Assembly: GCA_016195265.1 (NCBI GenBank)
Contig: JACPZW010000015.1
Location: 62,001 to 126,000 of the forward strand
Direction of reading: 5' to 3'
Source of the DNA: Acidobacteriota bacterium
GTDB taxonomy: Bacteria; Acidobacteriota; Vicinamibacteria; Vicinamibacterales; CAVVIG01
DNA length: 64,000 nt
Shown one piece after another: positions 24,620-60,168 of the stretch; the first letter of the stretch is position 1, and each line of letters begins with the position of its first letter. A program made the position numbers and the translations under genes. Below the pieces are notes generated by a model that worked only from the letters and a program-made list of their open reading frames with translations, was not told the origin of the DNA and did no database searches.

Positions 24620-24716
24620 TGGCGGAAGCGCCTGGGAGTCGAACCCAGCCCCCCCGCGTGAGCGGGGAGCGACCGATTTTGAAGACCGGGAGGGCCGCCG
24701 GGCCCCGTTCGCTTCC
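24620..24716 (-). tRNA. selC: tRNA-Sec (anticodon UCA), selC
   Basis: Read on the minus strand, the gene starts GGAAGCG and ends CGCTTCC, then discriminator G and encoded CCA. The anticodon arm is CCGGT-CTTCAAA-ATCGG, giving anticodon TCA at 24682-24680. A six-pair D stem (GGGGCC with GGCCCT, loop CGGC), a long variable arm hairpin (CCCCGC-TCAC-GCGGGG) and the T arm CTGGG-TTCGACT-CCCAG are all characteristic of selenocysteine tRNA, which is larger than normal tRNAs. The eighth acceptor pair is a mismatch. It decodes UGA as selenocysteine with SelA, SelB and SelD, none of which are in the window. Confidence 0.93.
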
Positions 24717-52281: not shown

Positions 52282-53358
52282 CTACATCGCAGTCAGCTGC
52301 TTCTTCAGGAATCTTGTCAGAATCCATCCATCGAGAAATTTGAACGGCGCTTTGCCCGAGCTGTAGTGGCCGCACGGGAGGACCGCGACCTCGTGCGGAA
52401 CGTTCAACTCGGCGAACGCGTGAACGAGATCGCGTGAGAGGTCGACGGGGAACGTCAGGTCGTAGCGCGCGTAGACAAGCAGCGTGCGCCGATCCCGCAG
52501 GCGTTCGAGGTACCAACGCGGGCTGATCGGCCGCCACAGCGCGCGCAGAAAATCCAGGTCGATGTGGCCGTCGAGTCCGTCGCGCACATGCCGCGTCGAG
52601 AGGCCGCGCCAGACGACGTCGGCGAAATGCGGCGAGATGTGATTGAGCGCCTGCGCCTTGATCAGCGGCTCGTGCGCGGTGGTCAGCAGCGAGAGGCACG
52701 ATCCGAGGCTCGTGCCGAGAATCCCGATGCGAGTGTAGCCTTGCGAGGCGAGCCACGCGATCGCGCGCCGCGCGTCGAGCACCGCCTGCCGGCAGATTTG
52801 AAGCGTACGCGCGATGTTGGCGCTGACGATGTAGTCCGCGCGGTGCAGTTCGGGCGGCATGCGCTGATCGTGATAGGGCAGGCTCAGGCGCAGCGCGCTC
52901 AGTCCGCTCCACGCGAGCAGCCGGCACAGGCCGGCGTGGCCGCCTACGTCGGCGTTCCACTGCGGGAGGACGAGCACCGCGGCCTTGCGCGTCGCGCCGG
53001 TCGTGGCGTCCGGCTTCAGCCGGACCGTCGCTGGAAAATATCGGCAATAAACCGTGTTGTTCGTCTCGTGCGGCGTGACGAGCGCGCTCGGAAATGTGAG
53101 CAGATCGCCGTCGGCCTCGGCGCTCAACAAATACTCGTCGGTCGGCGGCGCGGAGAAGAACGCGTCGGTGTCGGCCATGACGCGCGACACCCAGCCGCTC
53201 AGAACTGCCGACGGCGCACTGCCCTCCGCCTGCGGATCGCCGGGCGTGCGACCGTTCTGCGGAATCCAGTCGAGTCCCCACTCGAACGGCCGGACGACGC
53301 GATCTGTGGTGACCGAGGCGAGGCGGTGCTCCCACGCGTGGAAGATGGCTTGCAGCAT
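52282..53358 (-). CDS. Alpha/beta-fold hydrolase, 358 aa
   Basis: The nucleophile elbow is GILGTSLGSCLS near residue 217, with the acid in LVYARYDLTFPVDLS and the His in LPCGHYSSGKAPF. The N-terminal 100 residues and the order resemble large alpha/beta hydrolases of the abhydrolase-18-like type. A peptide RLKPDATT near residue 110 is encoded by a GTCCGGCTTCAGCCGGAC palindrome at 53008-53026, a repeat insertion that marks a surface loop. The start is divergent from the lysine operon leader, whose promoter overlaps its first codons. Confidence 0.8.
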   Translation of the reverse strand: MLQAIFHAWEHRLASVTTDRVVRPFEWGLDWIPQNGRTPGDPQAEGSAPSAVLSGWVSRVMADTDAFFSAPPTDEYLLSAEADGDLLTFPSALVTPHETNNTVYCRYFPATVRLKPDATTGATRKAAVLVLPQWNADVGGHAGLCRLLAWSGLSALRLSLPYHDQRMPPELHRADYIVSANIARTLQICRQAVLDARRAIAWLASQGYTRIGILGTSLGSCLSLLTTAHEPLIKAQALNHISPHFADVVWRGLSTRHVRDGLDGHIDLDFLRALWRPISPRWYLERLRDRRTLLVYARYDLTFPVDLSRDLVHAFAELNVPHEVAVLPCGHYSSGKAPFKFLDGWILTRFLKKQLTAM

Positions 53359-53377
53359 CCGTCTCTCATGCTATACT
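53350..53377 (+). promoter_or_regulatory. Promoter of the lysine operon leader
   Basis: TTGCAG (53350-53355) and TATACT (53372-53377) are separated by 16 bp, a good match to a sigma-70 promoter. Transcription should start near 53384, just before the structured leader. The -35 lies over the divergent hydrolase start. Confidence 0.6.
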
Positions 53378-53386
53378 GCTTGCTTC

Positions 53387-53488
53387 ATGCGATTCACCTC
53401 GAGCGGGACCATCGCGTTTGAGAGGAAGTCCAAGGGCATCGGCCGAAAGCGGTCCAACCGCGTCGGAGAATGTGTGCTCGAGACCTAA
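53387..53488 (+). CDS. Possible 33-aa leader peptide
   Basis: An ATG 9 nt after the -10 element opens a frame rich in Arg (5) and Lys (3), containing AFERKSKGIGRKRSNRVGE and ending before the terminator. Lys codons lie just before the antiterminator segment. A lysine-sensing leader peptide is therefore an alternative to a riboswitch, but Lys is sparse and there is no ribosome site. Confidence 0.25.
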   Translation: MRFTSSGTIAFERKSKGIGRKRSNRVGECVLET

Positions 53489-53514
53489 TCCTCATAGCAA
53501 CGAGCGTTCATGCT

Positions 53515-53549
53515 GCCGACCGGTTGAAAACCGCGTCGGCTTTTTTTTT
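53515..53549 (+). terminator. Intrinsic terminator in the asd leader
   Basis: GCCGAC-CGGTT, a GAA loop, AACCG, one bulged C and GTCGGC form an 11-bp stem, followed by nine T. It lies 68 nt before the asd start codon, so it would act as an attenuator of the whole lysine operon. Confidence 0.88.
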
Positions 53550-53616
53550 GGGTTGCGGAACGTTTGCCACGAAGGCACGAAGAGCACGAAGAAGAAGGGG
53601 AACGAGAGGAACGACG

Positions 53617-54663
53617 ATGGCATCGATCGAAGTAGGAATTCTTGGCGCGACCGGACAGGTGGGCCAGCAGTTCGTCGCGCTGCTCACGCATCATCCGTGG
53701 TTTCGCGTCGCGTGGCTCGGCGCGAGCGAGCGCTCCGCGGGCAAGCCGTACCGCGAGGCGACCGCGTGGCGGCTGCCGGCGCTGCTGACCGATTCCGTCG
53801 GCCGTTTGAAGGTGCAGGCTGCCGCGCCCGCCGGCGCGCCGAAGCTCGTCTTCTCCGGCCTCGATTCGTCCGTCGCCGGCGACATTGAAGCCGCCTTCGC
53901 GCAGGCCGGCCACATCGTCGTCAGCAATTCGCGCAACTACCGGATGGAGGCGACCGTTCCGCTGCTCATTCCCGAAGTGAACGCGGATCATCTCGCGCTG
54001 CTCGCGGCGCAGGGCGCCGCCACGGGATGGAAAGGCCGCATCGTCACGAATCCCAACTGCGCCGTCGTCGTCCTGGCGATGGCGCTCGCGCCGCTCCGCC
54101 AGTTCGGCTTGAAGAAAACGATGATCACGACGCTGCAGGCGATCTCCGGCGCCGGCTATCCGGGCGTGCCGTCGTGGGACATTCTCGGCAACGTCATCCC
54201 GTTCATCGGCGGCGGCGAGGAAGAGAAGATCGAAACCGAGACGAACAAAATTCTCGGCGCCGTGAAGAGCGGGCGTGTCGAGAATCATCCCGTGACCGTG
54301 AGCGCGGCGGTCACGCGCGTGCCGGTGCACAACGGCCATACCGGATCGATTGCCGTCGCGCTCGAGCAGCAGCCGGACCTCGACACGATCATCGACGCGT
54401 GGAATTCGTTCCGCGGCAAGCCGCAGGAACTCGGGCTGCCGTCCGCGCCGCCGCAGCCGATCGTCTACCTCACGGAACAGAACAGACCGCAGCCCGCGCT
54501 CGACGCGAATCGCGACGACGGTATGACGGTCACGGTCGGACGGCTGCGCCGCTGCCCCGTGCTCGGCTACAAGTTCGCGGCGCTTGGCCACAATACAATC
54601 CGCGGCGCCGCCGGCGCCGCCATCCTCAACGCCGAGCTGATGCATCGGGAGGGATTGCTGTGA
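53617..54663 (+). CDS. asd: Aspartate-semialdehyde dehydrogenase, 348 aa
   Basis: The NAD(P)-binding start is VGILGATGQVGQQFVALL, the active Cys is in TNPNCAVVVLA near residue 148, and the GAGYPGVPSWDILGNVIPFI and HNGHTGSIAV motifs mark the archaeal/fungal-type ASADH. The enzyme makes aspartate semialdehyde for lysine, methionine and threonine. GAGAGGA lies 8 nt before ATG 53617. The leader between the terminator and the start carries CACGAAG repeats. It heads asd-lysC-dapB-dapA-dapD-dapE. Confidence 0.93.
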   Translation: MASIEVGILGATGQVGQQFVALLTHHPWFRVAWLGASERSAGKPYREATAWRLPALLTDSVGRLKVQAAAPAGAPKLVFSGLDSSVAGDIEAAFAQAGHIVVSNSRNYRMEATVPLLIPEVNADHLALLAAQGAATGWKGRIVTNPNCAVVVLAMALAPLRQFGLKKTMITTLQAISGAGYPGVPSWDILGNVIPFIGGGEEEKIETETNKILGAVKSGRVENHPVTVSAAVTRVPVHNGHTGSIAVALEQQPDLDTIIDAWNSFRGKPQELGLPSAPPQPIVYLTEQNRPQPALDANRDDGMTVTVGRLRRCPVLGYKFAALGHNTIRGAAGAAILNAELMHREGLL

Positions 54664-54721: not shown

Positions 54722-56110
54722 ATGAGCGTCGTGATGAAGTTCGGCGGCACCTCCGTCGCCGATCCCGACGCCATCAGTCGCCTGATCGGCGTCGTTTCCC
54801 GGGAGCTTTCGGGGGATAGGGGCCCACGGATTAGCGGTGCTCCGACCGTCGTGGTCTCCGCGCTCTCGAAAGTGACTGACACGCTGGTGAAGGTGTGCGG
54901 CCTCGCGGAGGATGGCAATGGCAGCGGCGCCGCGCAGGCCCTGGACGCGCTCGTCGAGCGGCACGTGTCGATCGCATCGGCGGTGACCACGGAGAGCCGC
55001 GCGAGCGTCGTCGCGAGCGTGAAAGCGGAGTTCGACGAGTTGATCGGCCTCGTGCACGCGCTCGCGGTCCTGCGCGAGGTGTCCCCGCGATCGCAGGACG
55101 CCGTGCTCTCGGTCGGCGAGATCGTCAGCAGCCGCATCGTGGCTGCCGCGCTGGCCGACAGCGGGATCGCGAGCGCGTGGGTCGACGCGCGCACCGTGCT
55201 CATCACGGATGCCGAGTACACGTCGGCCGCGCCCGACATGACGGCCACCTGCGACCGCGTGCGTGAGCATCTCGCGCCGGTGCAGGCCGCCGGAAAAGTC
55301 GCCGTGCTCGGCGGCTTCATCGGCGCCACCGCCAGCGGCGTGACGACGACGCTCGGCCGCGGCGGGTCGGATTATTCGGCGGCGATCTTCGGCGCGTGCC
55401 TCGGCGTCGGCGAGATTCAGATCTGGACCGACGTGGACGGCATGCTGACCGCGGATCCGCGCGTCGTGCCGCACCCGCGGCTCGTCGAACAGCTGTCGTT
55501 CCACGAAGCGTCGGAGCTCGCGTTCTTCGGCGCGAAGGTCCTGCACCCGAGCACGATTCTCCCCGCCGTCGACAAGAACATCCCCGTGCGGATTCTGAAT
55601 TCGCGCCGGCCCGAGAACACGGGCACGCGCATCACCGCCGAAGGCCGCCCCGACGCGACCGGCGCGACCGGTCTGACCGCGCTCGCGTGCAAGCGTGACG
55701 TGACCGTCGTGGACATCACGTCCACCCGCATGCTGATGGCGCACGGTTTTCTGCGGCGGCTCTTCGAGGTGTTCGAGCGCTTCAAGACGCCGGTCGACGT
55801 CGTGACGACGTCCGAGGTCAGCGTGTCGGTCACCGTCGACGACACGCGCCGGCTCGACGACATCGTCGAGGGGTTGCGCCATTTCGCGGAGGTCAGCTCG
55901 GAGCGCGACATGGCGATTATCTGCGCCGTGGGCGAGAATCTCCGGTCGGACCCGGCCGCGTTCGCGCGCGCCGTGAACGCGCTGGACCGTGTGCCGCTGC
56001 GCCTTGTGTCACAGGCCGCGTCGCGGCGTAACATTACGTTCGTGCTGAGAAACGCGGACGTCCCCGAGGCGATGACGCGTCTCCATGATCAGTTCTTTGG
56101 ACGTGACTGA
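54722..56110 (+). CDS. lysC: Aspartate kinase (monofunctional, with ACT domains), 462 aa
   Basis: The kinase core is VMKFGGTSVAD at the N-terminus, with GGFIGATASGVTTTLGRGGSDYSAAI and WTDVDGMLTADPR. The C-terminal ACT pair (VTVVDITSTRMLMAHGFLRRLFEVFERFKTPVDVVTTSEVSVSVTVDD) is the allosteric domain bound by lysine or threonine. GGAGG lies 9 nt before ATG 54722. The short gap before it carries a CCCGCCTTTCC repeat. Confidence 0.93.
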   Translation: MSVVMKFGGTSVADPDAISRLIGVVSRELSGDRGPRISGAPTVVVSALSKVTDTLVKVCGLAEDGNGSGAAQALDALVERHVSIASAVTTESRASVVASVKAEFDELIGLVHALAVLREVSPRSQDAVLSVGEIVSSRIVAAALADSGIASAWVDARTVLITDAEYTSAAPDMTATCDRVREHLAPVQAAGKVAVLGGFIGATASGVTTTLGRGGSDYSAAIFGACLGVGEIQIWTDVDGMLTADPRVVPHPRLVEQLSFHEASELAFFGAKVLHPSTILPAVDKNIPVRILNSRRPENTGTRITAEGRPDATGATGLTALACKRDVTVVDITSTRMLMAHGFLRRLFEVFERFKTPVDVVTTSEVSVSVTVDDTRRLDDIVEGLRHFAEVSSERDMAIICAVGENLRSDPAAFARAVNALDRVPLRLVSQAASRRNITFVLRNADVPEAMTRLHDQFFGRD

Positions 56111-56130: not shown

Positions 56131-56362
56131 GCCACAGAGCTCACAGAGACACAGAGAGGCGATCAGTTCGGCGGCGCCGCAAAGCGGCGTGCCCAGCCGA
56201 ATCGGGACGGTGCACGAGTCGTGGCACTCTTCGCTTGAAGACTCGCGCACCGCCCCGATCCGGCTGCGCTCGTCGGCCTGCGAGGCAGGCCGACCGCCGA
56301 ACTGATCGCCTGATACTCCGCGTTGGTCTTCTCTCTGTGTCCCGGTGTCTCCGTGGCTCGTT
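56131..56362. repeat. Giant imperfect palindrome between lysC and dapB (about 230 bp)
   Basis: The outer arms are CACAGAG-type repeats (AGCCACAGAGCTCACAGAGA...) and their complement (TCTCTCTGTGTCCCGGTGTC...GTGGCT). Inside lies a perfect 17-bp pair GGCGATCAGTTCGGCGG (56158-56174) and CCGCCGAACTGATCGCC (56294-56310), and within that GGTGCACGAGTC pairs with GACTCGCGCACC. The whole gap (306 bp) has no gene and would fold into one long hairpin. Confidence 0.8.
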
Positions 56363-56416
56363 CCTCTTCTTCTTCGTTCTTCGTCTTCGTGGTTCGCAGG
56401 CGTTGGAATAACCGAG

Positions 56417-57112
56417 ATGCGCATACTCCTGGTCGGTCACGGCAAGATGGGACGGATGGTCGAGGCGCTCGCCGAGGAGTACGGGTGTGACGTCGCGGGC
56501 GTCCTGGATCCGCTGTCGCCGCGGCACGGCGGCGGACCCGACGCCGACGCGTGGAACGGTGTCGACGTCGCGATCGATTTCACGACGCCGGACTCCGTGA
56601 TGCAGAATGCGCCGGTGCTCGCGCGGCGCCGCATCAACCTCGTCATCGGCACGACCGGCTGGGCCGCGCACGACGCCGCGCTCCGGAAGGTGGTCGCCGA
56701 CGCCGGCAGCGGGATCGTCGTCGCGCCGAATTTCTCGACCGGCGTCGTCCTGTTCGAAGCGGTTGTCGCGCACGCGGCGAAGCTGTTCGCGCCGCACCAG
56801 GAGTTCGGCGCGTTTCTCCACGAGGCGCATCACAGCGCCAAGAAAGACGCGCCGTCGGGCACCGCGATATCGCTCAAGCGCGCGATGGAGCAGAGCGGGT
56901 TCCCGCGGCCGATCGACGTCTCGTCCACGCGCGCCGGATCGATTCCCGGCACGCACACGGTCGGCTTCGACGGCCCTGCCGAGACGGTCACGCTGACTCA
57001 CGCGGCGCGCGATCGGACCGCGTTCGCCCGGGGCGCGCTGACGGCCGCGAAGTGGATCAACGGCAAGCGCGGCTGGTACTCGATGAAAGACGTCCTTGGT
57101 CTGGGCGGGTAG
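56417..57112 (+). CDS. dapB: 4-hydroxy-tetrahydrodipicolinate reductase, 231 aa
   Basis: The N-terminus ILLVGHGKMGRMVEALAEE is a Rossmann site. The catalytic segment EFGAFLHEAHHSAKKDAPSGTAISLKRAM contains the conserved HH and K-x-x-x-P-S-G-T-A. FTTPDS and GTTGW are usual DapB landmarks. The enzyme reduces HTPA in lysine/diaminopimelate synthesis. ATG 56417 has weak ribosome signals. It is slightly short for DapB (about 250-270 aa). Confidence 0.93.
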   Translation: MRILLVGHGKMGRMVEALAEEYGCDVAGVLDPLSPRHGGGPDADAWNGVDVAIDFTTPDSVMQNAPVLARRRINLVIGTTGWAAHDAALRKVVADAGSGIVVAPNFSTGVVLFEAVVAHAAKLFAPHQEFGAFLHEAHHSAKKDAPSGTAISLKRAMEQSGFPRPIDVSSTRAGSIPGTHTVGFDGPAETVTLTHAARDRTAFARGALTAAKWINGKRGWYSMKDVLGLGG

Positions 57113-57135
57113 GGCTGGTGGGCAGGCAGGTGACG

Positions 57136-57168
57136 ACGTAGCGCAGGCCTTCAGGCCTGCTGGAGCAC
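57136..57168. repeat. GTAGCGCAGGCCTTCAGGCCTGCTGGAG palindrome before dapA
   Basis: GCAGGCC-TTCA-GGCCTGC forms a perfect hairpin ending 8 nt before the dapA ATG. It is the same family as the palindromes inside the helicase gene at 42656-42756. Confidence 0.8.
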
Positions 57169-57173
57169 ACGCA

Positions 57174-58073
57174 ATGAGAACACCATTCACCGGAGTCGGA
57201 ACTGCGCTCGTCAGTCCGTTCACGCGAAGCGGTGAGCTCGACGAAGCCGCCGTCCGGCGGCTCGCGCGCCGGCAGGTCGACGCGGGCGTCCATTTTCTGT
57301 GTCCGTGCGGCACGACGGGCGAGAATCCGACGCTCACGCACGCGGAGCGGATTCGCACCGTCGAAATTCTCGCCGACGAAGTGAAAGGCGGAGTTCCGAT
57401 CCTCGCGGGCGCGGGCGGCTACAACACGAAAGAAGTCATCCATCTCGCCGGCGAGATGAAGAAGGCGGGCGCCACCGGGCTGCTCTCCGTCACGCCGTAC
57501 TACAACAAGCCGACGCAGGAAGGCCTGTATCAGCACTATCGCGCGATTGCGGAGAGCACGCCGCTGCCGATCGTCGTCTACAACGTGCCGGGCCGCACCG
57601 GCGTGAACGTCGAGCCCGCGACGCTGGCGCGCATGGCCGCGCTCCCGAACATCGTCGGCGTGAAGGAAGCCTCCGGCAACGTGACGCAGATGTGCGAGAT
57701 CTGCCGCATCGTGCCGGGCGACTTCATCGTCGTCTCGGGTGACGATGCGCTCACGCTGCCGCTGATGGCGGTGGGCGGGCGCGGAATCATTTCCGTGGCG
57801 GGCAATGAAATTCCCGCCGAGATGGTCCAGATGGTCGAAGCCGTCGAGCGCGGCGACTTCGCTGCGGCGCGCGCGGTGCACACCCGCATCCTGCCGCTCA
57901 TGCTCGGCAACTTCATCGAATCGAATCCCGTTCCGGTCAAGGCGGCGATGGCGGCGATGGGATTGATTGAGGAGGTCTATCGCCTGCCGATGACGTCGCC
58001 GAAGCCGGAGTCGAAGACGAAGATTCTGCAGATTCTCAAGGAGCTCGGCTTACTGAAAGGCGCGCTGGTCTAG
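57174..58073 (+). CDS. dapA: 4-hydroxy-tetrahydrodipicolinate synthase, 299 aa
   Basis: CGTTGENPTLTHAER holds the catalytic triad Thr pair, LLSVTPYYNKPTQEGLYQHYRAIAE the catalytic Tyr, and PNIVGVKEASGN the Schiff-base Lys near residue 163. It condenses pyruvate with aspartate semialdehyde. The ATG 57174 sits 8 nt after a REP-like hairpin and lacks a clear ribosome site. Confidence 0.95.
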   Translation: MRTPFTGVGTALVSPFTRSGELDEAAVRRLARRQVDAGVHFLCPCGTTGENPTLTHAERIRTVEILADEVKGGVPILAGAGGYNTKEVIHLAGEMKKAGATGLLSVTPYYNKPTQEGLYQHYRAIAESTPLPIVVYNVPGRTGVNVEPATLARMAALPNIVGVKEASGNVTQMCEICRIVPGDFIVVSGDDALTLPLMAVGGRGIISVAGNEIPAEMVQMVEAVERGDFAAARAVHTRILPLMLGNFIESNPVPVKAAMAAMGLIEEVYRLPMTSPKPESKTKILQILKELGLLKGALV

Positions 58074-58208: not shown

Positions 58209-59057
58209 ATGCTGAAAAACGAAATCGCCAATCTGATCGCGACGGGCGCATCCGTCGACCGCGAGCTCGCGCGCGAGACGTTCGCGCGGCTGCGCGCTGC
58301 GCTCTCGTCCGGCGAAGTGCGCGCGGCCGAGCCCGATCCGTCGAGCCCGATCGGCTGGCGCGTCAACACGTGGGTGAAGCAGGGCATCCTGCTCGGCTTC
58401 AAGTTCGGCGACATGGTCGATGCGTCGATGGACCACGGCAAACTGCCGTTCTACGACAAAGACACGCTGCCGCTCAAGAAACCGGGGCTCGCGGCCGGCG
58501 TACGCATCGTACCCGGCGGCTCGGCGATTCGCGACGGCGCGTATCTTGCCCCCGGCGTCATCTGCATGCCGCCGATGTACGTGAACATCGGCGCGTGGGT
58601 CGGCGAAGGATCGATGATCGACTCGCACGCGCTCGTCGGCTCGTGCGCGCAGGTCGGCGCGCGCGTGCACGTGAGCGCCGCCGCGCAGATCGGCGGCGTC
58701 ATCGAGCCGGTGGGTGCGCTGCCCGTGATCATCGAAGACGACGTGCTCATCGGAGGCAACACCGGCATCTACGAAGGCGCGATCATCAAGGCGCGCGCCG
58801 TGATAGCGGCCGGGACGGTGCTGACCGGATCGACGCCCGTGTACGACCTCGTCCGCGGCGAGATCATCAAACCGACCGCGGATCATCCCCTCGTCATCCC
58901 CGAAGGCGCGGTCGTCGTGCCCGGCGCGCGCGCTGTGACGCCAGGCAAGGGCCCCGTGATAGATGGCTGGGGTCTCGCGCTCGCCACGCCGGTCATCGTC
59001 AAGTACCGCGACTCCCGCACCGACACGCGCACGGAACTCGAAGCGTGGATCCGGTGA
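58209..59057 (+). CDS. dapD: 2,3,4,5-tetrahydropyridine-2,6-dicarboxylate N-succinyltransferase
   Basis: The C-terminal half is a left-handed beta-helix of hexapeptide repeats ([39 protein letters not shown]). The N-terminal domain ([22 protein letters not shown]) is typical of DapD. It succinylates the tetrahydrodipicolinate amine. So this organism uses the succinylase branch of lysine synthesis. The start is close to a palindrome cluster. Confidence 0.93.
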
Positions 59058-59100
59058 CGACGGCACGACGATCAACGCAGAGCCCGCAGAGGATTGTTGC

Positions 59101-60168
59101 GTGAGATCGGATGCGGTAGACATCGTCGCGCTCACGCGCGCGCTCGTCGATATCGATTCGACGACCGGCCGCGAGGGCGACGCCGGGCGCTGGCTCGCAG
59201 ATTACCTGCGCGGCCGCGGCTGCGCCGTCGTCGAACAGAAAGTCGACGATGGGCGATTCAACGTCATCGCGACGCCGCCGGCCGTAGGGGCCGACCTTGG
59301 TCGGCCCTCGGGATCGGGCGGAGCAAGCTCCGCCCCTACGATTACCTTCTCCACTCACTTCGATTGCGTCCCGCCTTTCTTCCCCAGCCGGGTCGACGGC
59401 GATCGCCTTTACGGCCGCGGATCTTGCGACGCGAAGGGCATTCTCGCGGCGCAGGTCGCGGCCGCCGATCGGCTCTGGCGCGACGGCGAGACGCATGTCG
59501 GACTGCTGTTCGTCGTCGGCGAAGAACGCGGCAGTGATGGCGCGCGAATCGCGAACGACGCCCCCGATGGCGCAATGTCAGGGTCCCGATTTCTGATCAA
59601 CGGCGAGCCGACGGACAATCGCCTGGGCCGCGCGACGCGCGGCATCCTGCGCTTCAAGTTGCGCGCGAGCGGACGGGCGGCGCACTCGTCGTTTCCCGAG
59701 CTCGGCGAGTCGGCGATCGACAAGCTGATCGACGCGTTGATCGAACTGCGGTCGATTGCGCTGCCGGACGATCCGGTCCTGGGTCGCACGCACTACACGG
59801 TGGGACTGATCAGCGGAGGCGTGGCGCCGAACGTCGTGTCGCCTGCCGCTGAAGCCGAAGTGATGTTCCGGACCGTGAGCGATGCCGCGCAGGTGCGCCG
59901 TGCGGTCACGCCGCTCGAGCGGCGCGTAACGATCGAGCACGTCCTCGACGTGCCGCCGGTGCGTCTGAAGACGGTGCCGGGCTTTGACGCCGCCGTGTTT
60001 CCCTACACGACGGACATTCCGTTTCTCGCGCGCTGGGGCGAACCGCTCCTATTCGGTCCGGGCTCGATCCATGTCGCGCACACCGCCGACGAGTTCGTCT
60101 CGATAGCGGAGCTGCGGGCGGCCGCCGATCATTACGTGACGATCGCGCGCGCGCTGCTGGCGCTGTAG
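59101..60168 (+). CDS. dapE: M20-family deacylase, probably succinyl-diaminopimelate desuccinylase, 355 aa
   Basis: The metal-binding segments are FSTHFDCVPPF, YGRGSCDAKGILAAQVAA and EERGSDGA, with HSSFPELGESAI in the dimerisation part. Position after dapD argues for DapE, which removes succinate from succinyl-LL-diaminopimelate; ArgE-like or other M20 roles are possible. Residues 61-79 (VGADLGRPSGSGGASSAPT) come from two palindromes, GGCCGACCTTGGTCGGCC and GGCGGAGCAAGCTCCGCC, at 59284-59341. They replace a loop before the first metal strand. GTG 59101 is the start. Confidence 0.8.
   Translation: MRSDAVDIVALTRALVDIDSTTGREGDAGRWLADYLRGRGCAVVEQKVDDGRFNVIATPPAVGADLGRPSGSGGASSAPTITFSTHFDCVPPFFPSRVDGDRLYGRGSCDAKGILAAQVAAADRLWRDGETHVGLLFVVGEERGSDGARIANDAPDGAMSGSRFLINGEPTDNRLGRATRGILRFKLRASGRAAHSSFPELGESAIDKLIDALIELRSIALPDDPVLGRTHYTVGLISGGVAPNVVSPAAEAEVMFRTVSDAAQVRRAVTPLERRVTIEHVLDVPPVRLKTVPGFDAAVFPYTTDIPFLARWGEPLLFGPGSIHVAHTADEFVSIAELRAAADHYVTIARALLAL

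Follow-up and report, generated by a model that had tools for sequence, protein, structure and literature searches.

Lysine and methionine synthesis are textbook targets of riboswitches. The pathways for which leader-peptide attenuators have been named are trp, his, leu, ilv, thr and phe (PMC1183508), lysine and methionine were assigned to riboswitches (PMC1262725), and for predicted acidobacterial attenuators almost no functions have been assigned (PMC2965389). In Sinorhizobium, the translated small ORF SEP5, which contains Thr and Lys codons and lies 5' of an aspartate dehydrogenase gene, is proposed to encode a leader peptide (PMC10117765). A lysine leader-peptide attenuator was not found in the literature, our coverage of which was incomplete and did not include the 2010 attenuation survey of Lopatovskaya and co-workers (cited in PMC4833913). 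Since lysine and methionine have been assigned to riboswitches, lysine leader-peptide attenuation looks new, although the mechanism class itself is known, and leader-peptide attenuation for lysine (or, in relatives, for methionine) seems to have no earlier description.

We analysed a stretch of 64,000 nucleotides from an Acidobacteriota genome (hereafter the window), in which a lysine operon beginning with asd is preceded by a structured leader (Table 1). Comparison of this leader with its relatives makes it highly probable that asd-lysC-dapB-dapA-dapD(-dapE) is controlled by a ribosome-mediated transcription attenuator of the trp/his/thr type that senses charged tRNA-Lys. The promoter elements, the terminator with its nine T residues and the exact second copy of the terminator 3' arm (53529-53539) that the original prediction had described were all present in the leader. 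A consensus scan listed neither the putative promoter, the -35 element of which has only three of six consensus matches, nor the terminator, the scan tolerating no bulge and the 11-bp stem containing a single bulged C. The -10 sequence TATACT was found again in nearly all leaders of a 25-sequence family alignment, and the T run ends 67 nt 5' of the asd ATG (53617). A dispersed repeat, CCACGAAGGCACGAAGAGCACGAAGAAG, occupies 53562-53601 between the terminator and asd and has 13 more sites in the genome at E < 0.001. On the minus strand, a divergent gene (52282-53358) encodes a putative quorum lactone hydrolase of the RcgR family (NF047337). Its start codon and the region of the asd promoter overlap, and many relatives have this gene in the same divergent position.

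Table 1. Features of the asd leader and of the operon behind it (positions within the window).
Feature	Position	Strand	Basis
Putative promoter, -35 TTGCAG, 16-nt spacer, -10 TATACT	53350-53355, 53372-53377	+	Sequence
Leader ORF, 33 codons, MRFTSSGTIAFERKSKGIGRKRSNRVGECVLET then stop	53387-53488	+	Homologous in-frame ORF in 25 of 25 retained family leaders
Putative control codons AAG TCC AAG (Lys-Ser-Lys)	53426-53434	+	89 and 83 nt 5' of terminator; Lys at about 82-89 nt in most relatives
Candidate region 1, CCGA..GCGGT, could pair with region 2 as anti-antiterminator	53443-53453	+	Sequence only
Third Lys codon, AAG in CGA-AAG-CGG	53447-53449	+	68 nt 5' of terminator; kept in 24 of 25 leaders
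Region 2, AACCGCGTCGG, antiterminator 5' strand, within leader ORF	53456-53466	+	Family-conserved; co-varies with terminator 5' arm across families
Apical antiterminator stem, 5' side, GCTCG	53476-53480	+	93.6% of cells paired with 53501-53505, 25 sequences
Apical antiterminator stem, 3' side, CGAGC	53501-53505	+	Same pairing test, 25 sequences
Region 3, GCCGACCGGTT, terminator 5' arm and antiterminator 3' strand	53515-53525	+	Sequence
Region 4, AACCGCGTCGGC and nine T, intrinsic terminator	53529-53540 (arm), 53541-53549 (T run)	+	Family-conserved
asd, aspartate-semialdehyde dehydrogenase	53617-54663	+	NCBIfam TIGR00978, E 1.9e-128
lysC, lysine-sensitive-type aspartokinase	54722-56110	+	NF006570, above cut-off
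dapB	56345-57112	+	TIGR00036, above cut-off; longest ORF, true start probably further in
dapA	57096-58073	+	TIGR00674, above cut-off; longest ORF, true start probably further in
dapD	58209-59057	+	NF008808, above cut-off
dapE-like deacylase, ArgE/DapE family	58963-60168	+	TIGR01910, below cut-off; true start probably near 59111

The original prediction had seen no leader-peptide core here, a statement that was wrong: it overlooked the leader ORF, inside which region 2 lies. The ATG of this ORF is 9 nt 3' of the -10 box, and the ORF is probably translated from a nearly leaderless 5' end. When 53378-53552 was searched against 100 related genomes, the leader turned up in most members of the same family, with no convincing match beyond it, and asd was the next gene at every family locus examined. 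The relatives are Vicinamibacterales MAGs of the Acidobacteriota, one of which is named Luteitalea sp. The family alignment of 25 leaders includes two divergent members of genus g2 and the leader L052. In all 25 sequences a Lys-containing short ORF and a terminator lie 5' of asd, with the stop codon 28-44 nt 5' of the terminator arm; the distance from the -10 box to the ATG is 9 nt in 15 of them and 9-13 nt in 20. Reading frames agreed in 99.5% of the ORF alignment columns, and the clear indels within the ORF (for example of 18, 21, 9 and 3 nt) have lengths divisible by three, the sole exception being L021, in which a loss of 4 nt shortens the tail of the ORF. The absence of known lysine riboswitch or T-box cores, which had also been claimed, held: neither RF00168 nor a T-box nor any other riboswitch was found at the leader by Rfam, either at the gathering score or at E up to 10. 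The only Rfam matches at the gathering score in the whole 64-kb window were tRNA and tRNA-Sec, the latter being a selenocysteine tRNA gene at 24624-24716 on the minus strand (RF01852, 56.7 bits).

We next compared the RNA pairings. The leader fold is stronger than that of shuffled sequence (z = -3.7 and -3.1). In the family alignment, 97.6% of cells were paired for region 2 and 93.6% for the 53501-53505 pairing, compared to 17-49% when the pairings were slid. Both alternative partners that had been proposed for GCTCG, CGAGC at 53400-53404 or at 53501-53505, can form in the window, as can the 7-bp closing stem (CTCGAGC:GCTCGAG) to which the former belongs. However, neither the 53400-53404 pairing nor this stem is kept in the family, because the stretch sits in an insertion of the window's genus; conservation and covariation in related asd leaders, the check named in the original prediction, favour the terminator-arm copy and not the 53400-53404 pairing. 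Region 2 is perfectly complementary to region 3 in most family members, whereas region 4 has one A-C mismatch with region 3, as would be expected of a balanced switch. An unregulated terminator, serving as a constitutive polarity or insulation signal beside an incidental ORF and an incidental alternative pairing, might account for an 11-nt arm copy that arose by chance, which is possible though rare (4 of 20,000 dinucleotide shuffles of 53380-53527), and for two exceptional relatives, one of which has lost the whole leader so that the promoter abuts asd (G004, L050) and one of which has a -10 box directly followed by the terminator without a leader ORF (G112, L230). Such a signal is nevertheless exceedingly improbable given that ORF, spacing and pairing are conserved across the family and that co-variation and a match between codons and operon extend across families, as described below.

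Only three of the 33 leader codons in the window specify Lys, which is below the counts in textbook leaders. These codons are maintained in the family, at spacings of about 82-89 and 67-74 nt from region 3, while adjacent codons change; the codon before the third Lys, for instance, is CGA, CCT, CAT, CTG, CCA, CCC or CAC among the 25 leaders. One leader (L027) has five Lys codons, using both AAA and AAG, after gaining three by in-frame insertion, and two others (L010 and L011) encode KKSK, the Lys again having been added through in-frame insertion; L016 and L014 each lack one of two Lys codons. The commonest residue of the family's leader peptides is Arg (19.5%). However, Arg codons are found in Lys-type leaders and in the Met-type leaders of other families alike, which makes Arg sensing unlikely.

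The same RNA switch could also be operated by nascent-peptide arrest of the TnaC/SpeFL type, in which the peptide itself would sense lysine or a related compound and the ribosome would stall near the stop codon. Consistent with such arrest, the leader peptide is strongly basic and its C-terminus is rather conserved in the family up to the stop (VGGVVLER, VGECVLET). However, this conservation is explained by the RNA, because the stretch doubles as one side of the apical stem; moreover, L021 retains the ORF without the conserved C-terminus, and the C-termini of other families are unrelated (PRA, RAT, VRL, CRS). Codon positions in the family ORF vary about equally, as expected of RNA rather than peptide constraint, although the lack of a third-position excess counts against the attenuator reading too, and the exchange of Lys for Met codons in other families fits tRNA sensing. 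We therefore regard peptide arrest as improbable and sensing of charged tRNA-Lys as the preferred reading.

In about 30 of about 50 genomes from other families of the order, the region upstream of asd showed the same plan, a short ORF followed by a terminator of different sequence. Many of these leaders are of Lys type (MRKEMKIKRASRKRVPRA, KIKRASLKRVPRA, RKRMPKRA, RKRVKRP), others are of a Thr/Ile/Lys type (G029 and G041, each a single-contig genome, have MTRTIITITVTTRKREL and MTRTITITVTTRKREL; another is MRHDTRTSTRTTIRKRKRL), and four are of Met type (codons as in AAAMRMMAMRMTSIGGG; the four are MSMPMMAMRMTSIGG, AAAMRMMAMRM twice and LMSMRSYSIGGG). We assigned the genes that follow asd by tblastn with proteins of the window and by NCBIfam. 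Where enough sequence was available, Lys and Thr/Lys leaders were followed by lysC-dapB-dapA-dapD (lysC being absent in one, L200), whereas the operons behind Met leaders were hom-metY-metX (L196), lysC-hom-metY-metX (L216), lysC-hom-metX (L217) and lysC-metY-metX (L224). Met codons outnumbered Lys codons in 4 of 4 Met operons, which stem from two families only (f5 and f11), compared to 1 of 50 Lys operons (L066, mainly Thr; Fisher p = 1.6e-5, a value that ignores kinship). Lys was enriched in leader ORFs outside the family with p = 9e-16, a figure biased upward because these ORFs were partly chosen by a Lys/Arg motif. Column-counting covariation within the family did not find compensatory changes, regions 2 and 3 being too conserved for them, and we therefore used a partner-swap comparison across families instead. 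In 29 leaders from other families, each antiterminator strand paired with its own terminator arm at -19.1 kcal/mol, compared to -16.5 kcal/mol with the arms of others (z = -5.6; 0 of 20,000 permutations reached this), while the same comparison inside the family, where the pairs hardly vary, gave z = -1.0. No comparable asd leader was found in other Acidobacteriota classes or other phyla (L137-L195), and none was found at asd in genomes with lysC directly 5' of asd.

These comparisons bear on the unrecognised riboswitch put forward in the original prediction, in which an RNA fold formed around lysine or a different metabolite of the aspartate family would choose between antiterminator and terminator. 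The attenuator of a lysine operon with a terminator/antiterminator switch is supported, and the real alternative pairings, the strong fold, the lack of a known Rfam class and the lysine genes downstream would all suit a riboswitch. However, the supposed aptamer is an ORF conserved in frame, with Lys codons and codon-sized insertions and deletions, and a conserved non-coding core is absent. Across the order the sequence is replaced yet the ORF, its control codons and the 2:3 pairing are kept, and the identity of the codons follows the downstream pathway, which an aptamer does not predict. A small-molecule ligand is thus very improbable. For the order as a whole, we consider it reasonably likely that these leaders form a set of aspartate-pathway attenuators whose control codons (Lys, Thr/Ile/Lys or Met) are exchanged in step with the genes behind asd, and that they are the first lysine and methionine leader-peptide attenuators, with a nearly leaderless ORF.

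In the proposed mechanism of ribosome-mediated attenuation, transcription would begin just 5' of the 33-codon ORF, so that the first ribosome would load at a 5' end with almost no leader. Under scarcity of charged tRNA-Lys, this ribosome would stall on the Lys codons at 53426-53434, perhaps also at 53447, leaving region 2 free to pair with region 3 with the aid of the apical stem, and RNA polymerase would read through into asd. With charged tRNA-Lys in ample supply, the ribosome would reach the stop codon at 53486, region 2 would be hidden or would refold with region 1, and transcription would end at the 3:4 terminator. Region 1, which in relatives is partly different (CCTCCGACACG with CGTGTCGGAGG), is the weakest part of this putative anatomy. 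Equilibrium folding with blocked ribosome footprints gave a mean terminator probability in the family of 0.35 with the ribosome on the first Lys codon, compared to 0.89 with the ribosome at the stop codon, and in this model a ribosome stalled at 53426-53434 frees the antiterminator strand. A second model asked whether region 3 is already occupied by the time region 4 is transcribed; here 32 of 54 leaders showed clear switching the expected way and none the opposite way, a result favoured by taking the best stall codon for each leader. For the window's own leader, the antiterminator was predicted whether the ribosome sat on the first Lys codon or at the stop, and neither model discriminated between the two; either this leader must switch kinetically, or the model is too coarse. 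With the ribosome stalled on the last Lys codon of the window, termination was predicted, so the Lys codons at 53426-53434 are likely the control codons.

We also looked for leaders of other amino-acid operons in these genomes. In the window's own genome, hisG (position 20639 of contig G000:C37; leader L298) is preceded by the His leader MFTGHHHARHFHHGDGPAEAA and a terminator, and His-rich leader ORFs (for example VHHVHHHHH) with GC-rich T-run terminators lie 5' of hisG in most family genomes (L292-L315). By their sequence, these are textbook-like his attenuators in Acidobacteriota, and ribosome-mediated attenuation thus appears to be in use in the same genomes. At hom, three family genomes (L262, L263 and L264) have a strong terminator and a short ORF with a run of Thr (and Leu) codons (PLPTTITLP, PLPTTTLLLT) about 0.65-0.73 kb 5' of the homoserine dehydrogenase domain, possibly a Thr attenuator. 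For leuA and trpE, a leader peptide adjacent to the gene was not found in the family; leuA may be operon-internal.

Reading the asd leader as a leader-peptide attenuator corrects a riboswitch candidate, and a codon-sensing lysine attenuator with Thr- and Met-codon relatives amounts to a codon swap carried out by nature, in a phylum that is very abundant in soil; the two single-contig genomes with the Thr/Ile/Lys form suggest tractable hosts. Among described elements, SEP5 resembles the asd leader in layout, being a small ORF that contains Thr and Lys codons and precedes an aspartate-family gene, but it is conserved in Sinorhizobium only and the passage describing it gives no attenuator structure (PMC10117765). 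The lysine riboswitch (L-box, RF00168) likewise attenuates lysC/asd-type genes, in other bacteria; unlike it, the asd leader is coding and has no Rfam match. The hisG leaders share genomes, short ORF and terminator with the asd leader but differ in having His codons and serving the his operon, and we claim no sequence relation between the two. The E. coli thrABC leader (thrL) and the trp, his, leu, ilv and phe attenuators have the same parts as the asd leader, namely a short ORF with codons for the product, alternative hairpins and an intrinsic terminator, placed 5' of the first gene of an amino-acid operon. As in leader-peptide attenuators, the leader ORF is conserved, its control codons match the product, and the antiterminator overlaps the ORF and excludes the terminator. 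The Luteitalea-like leaders L107 and L093 carry ...TIITITVTT..., which together with the Thr/Ile/Lys type MTRTIITITVTTRKREL we take to resemble E. coli ThrL. Unlike thrL-type attenuators, the asd leader belongs to Acidobacteriota, its ORF begins only 9 nt 3' of the -10 box, too close for a Shine-Dalgarno site, and its control codons specify Lys (Met in the relatives' met operons), are fewer and are spaced by Arg.
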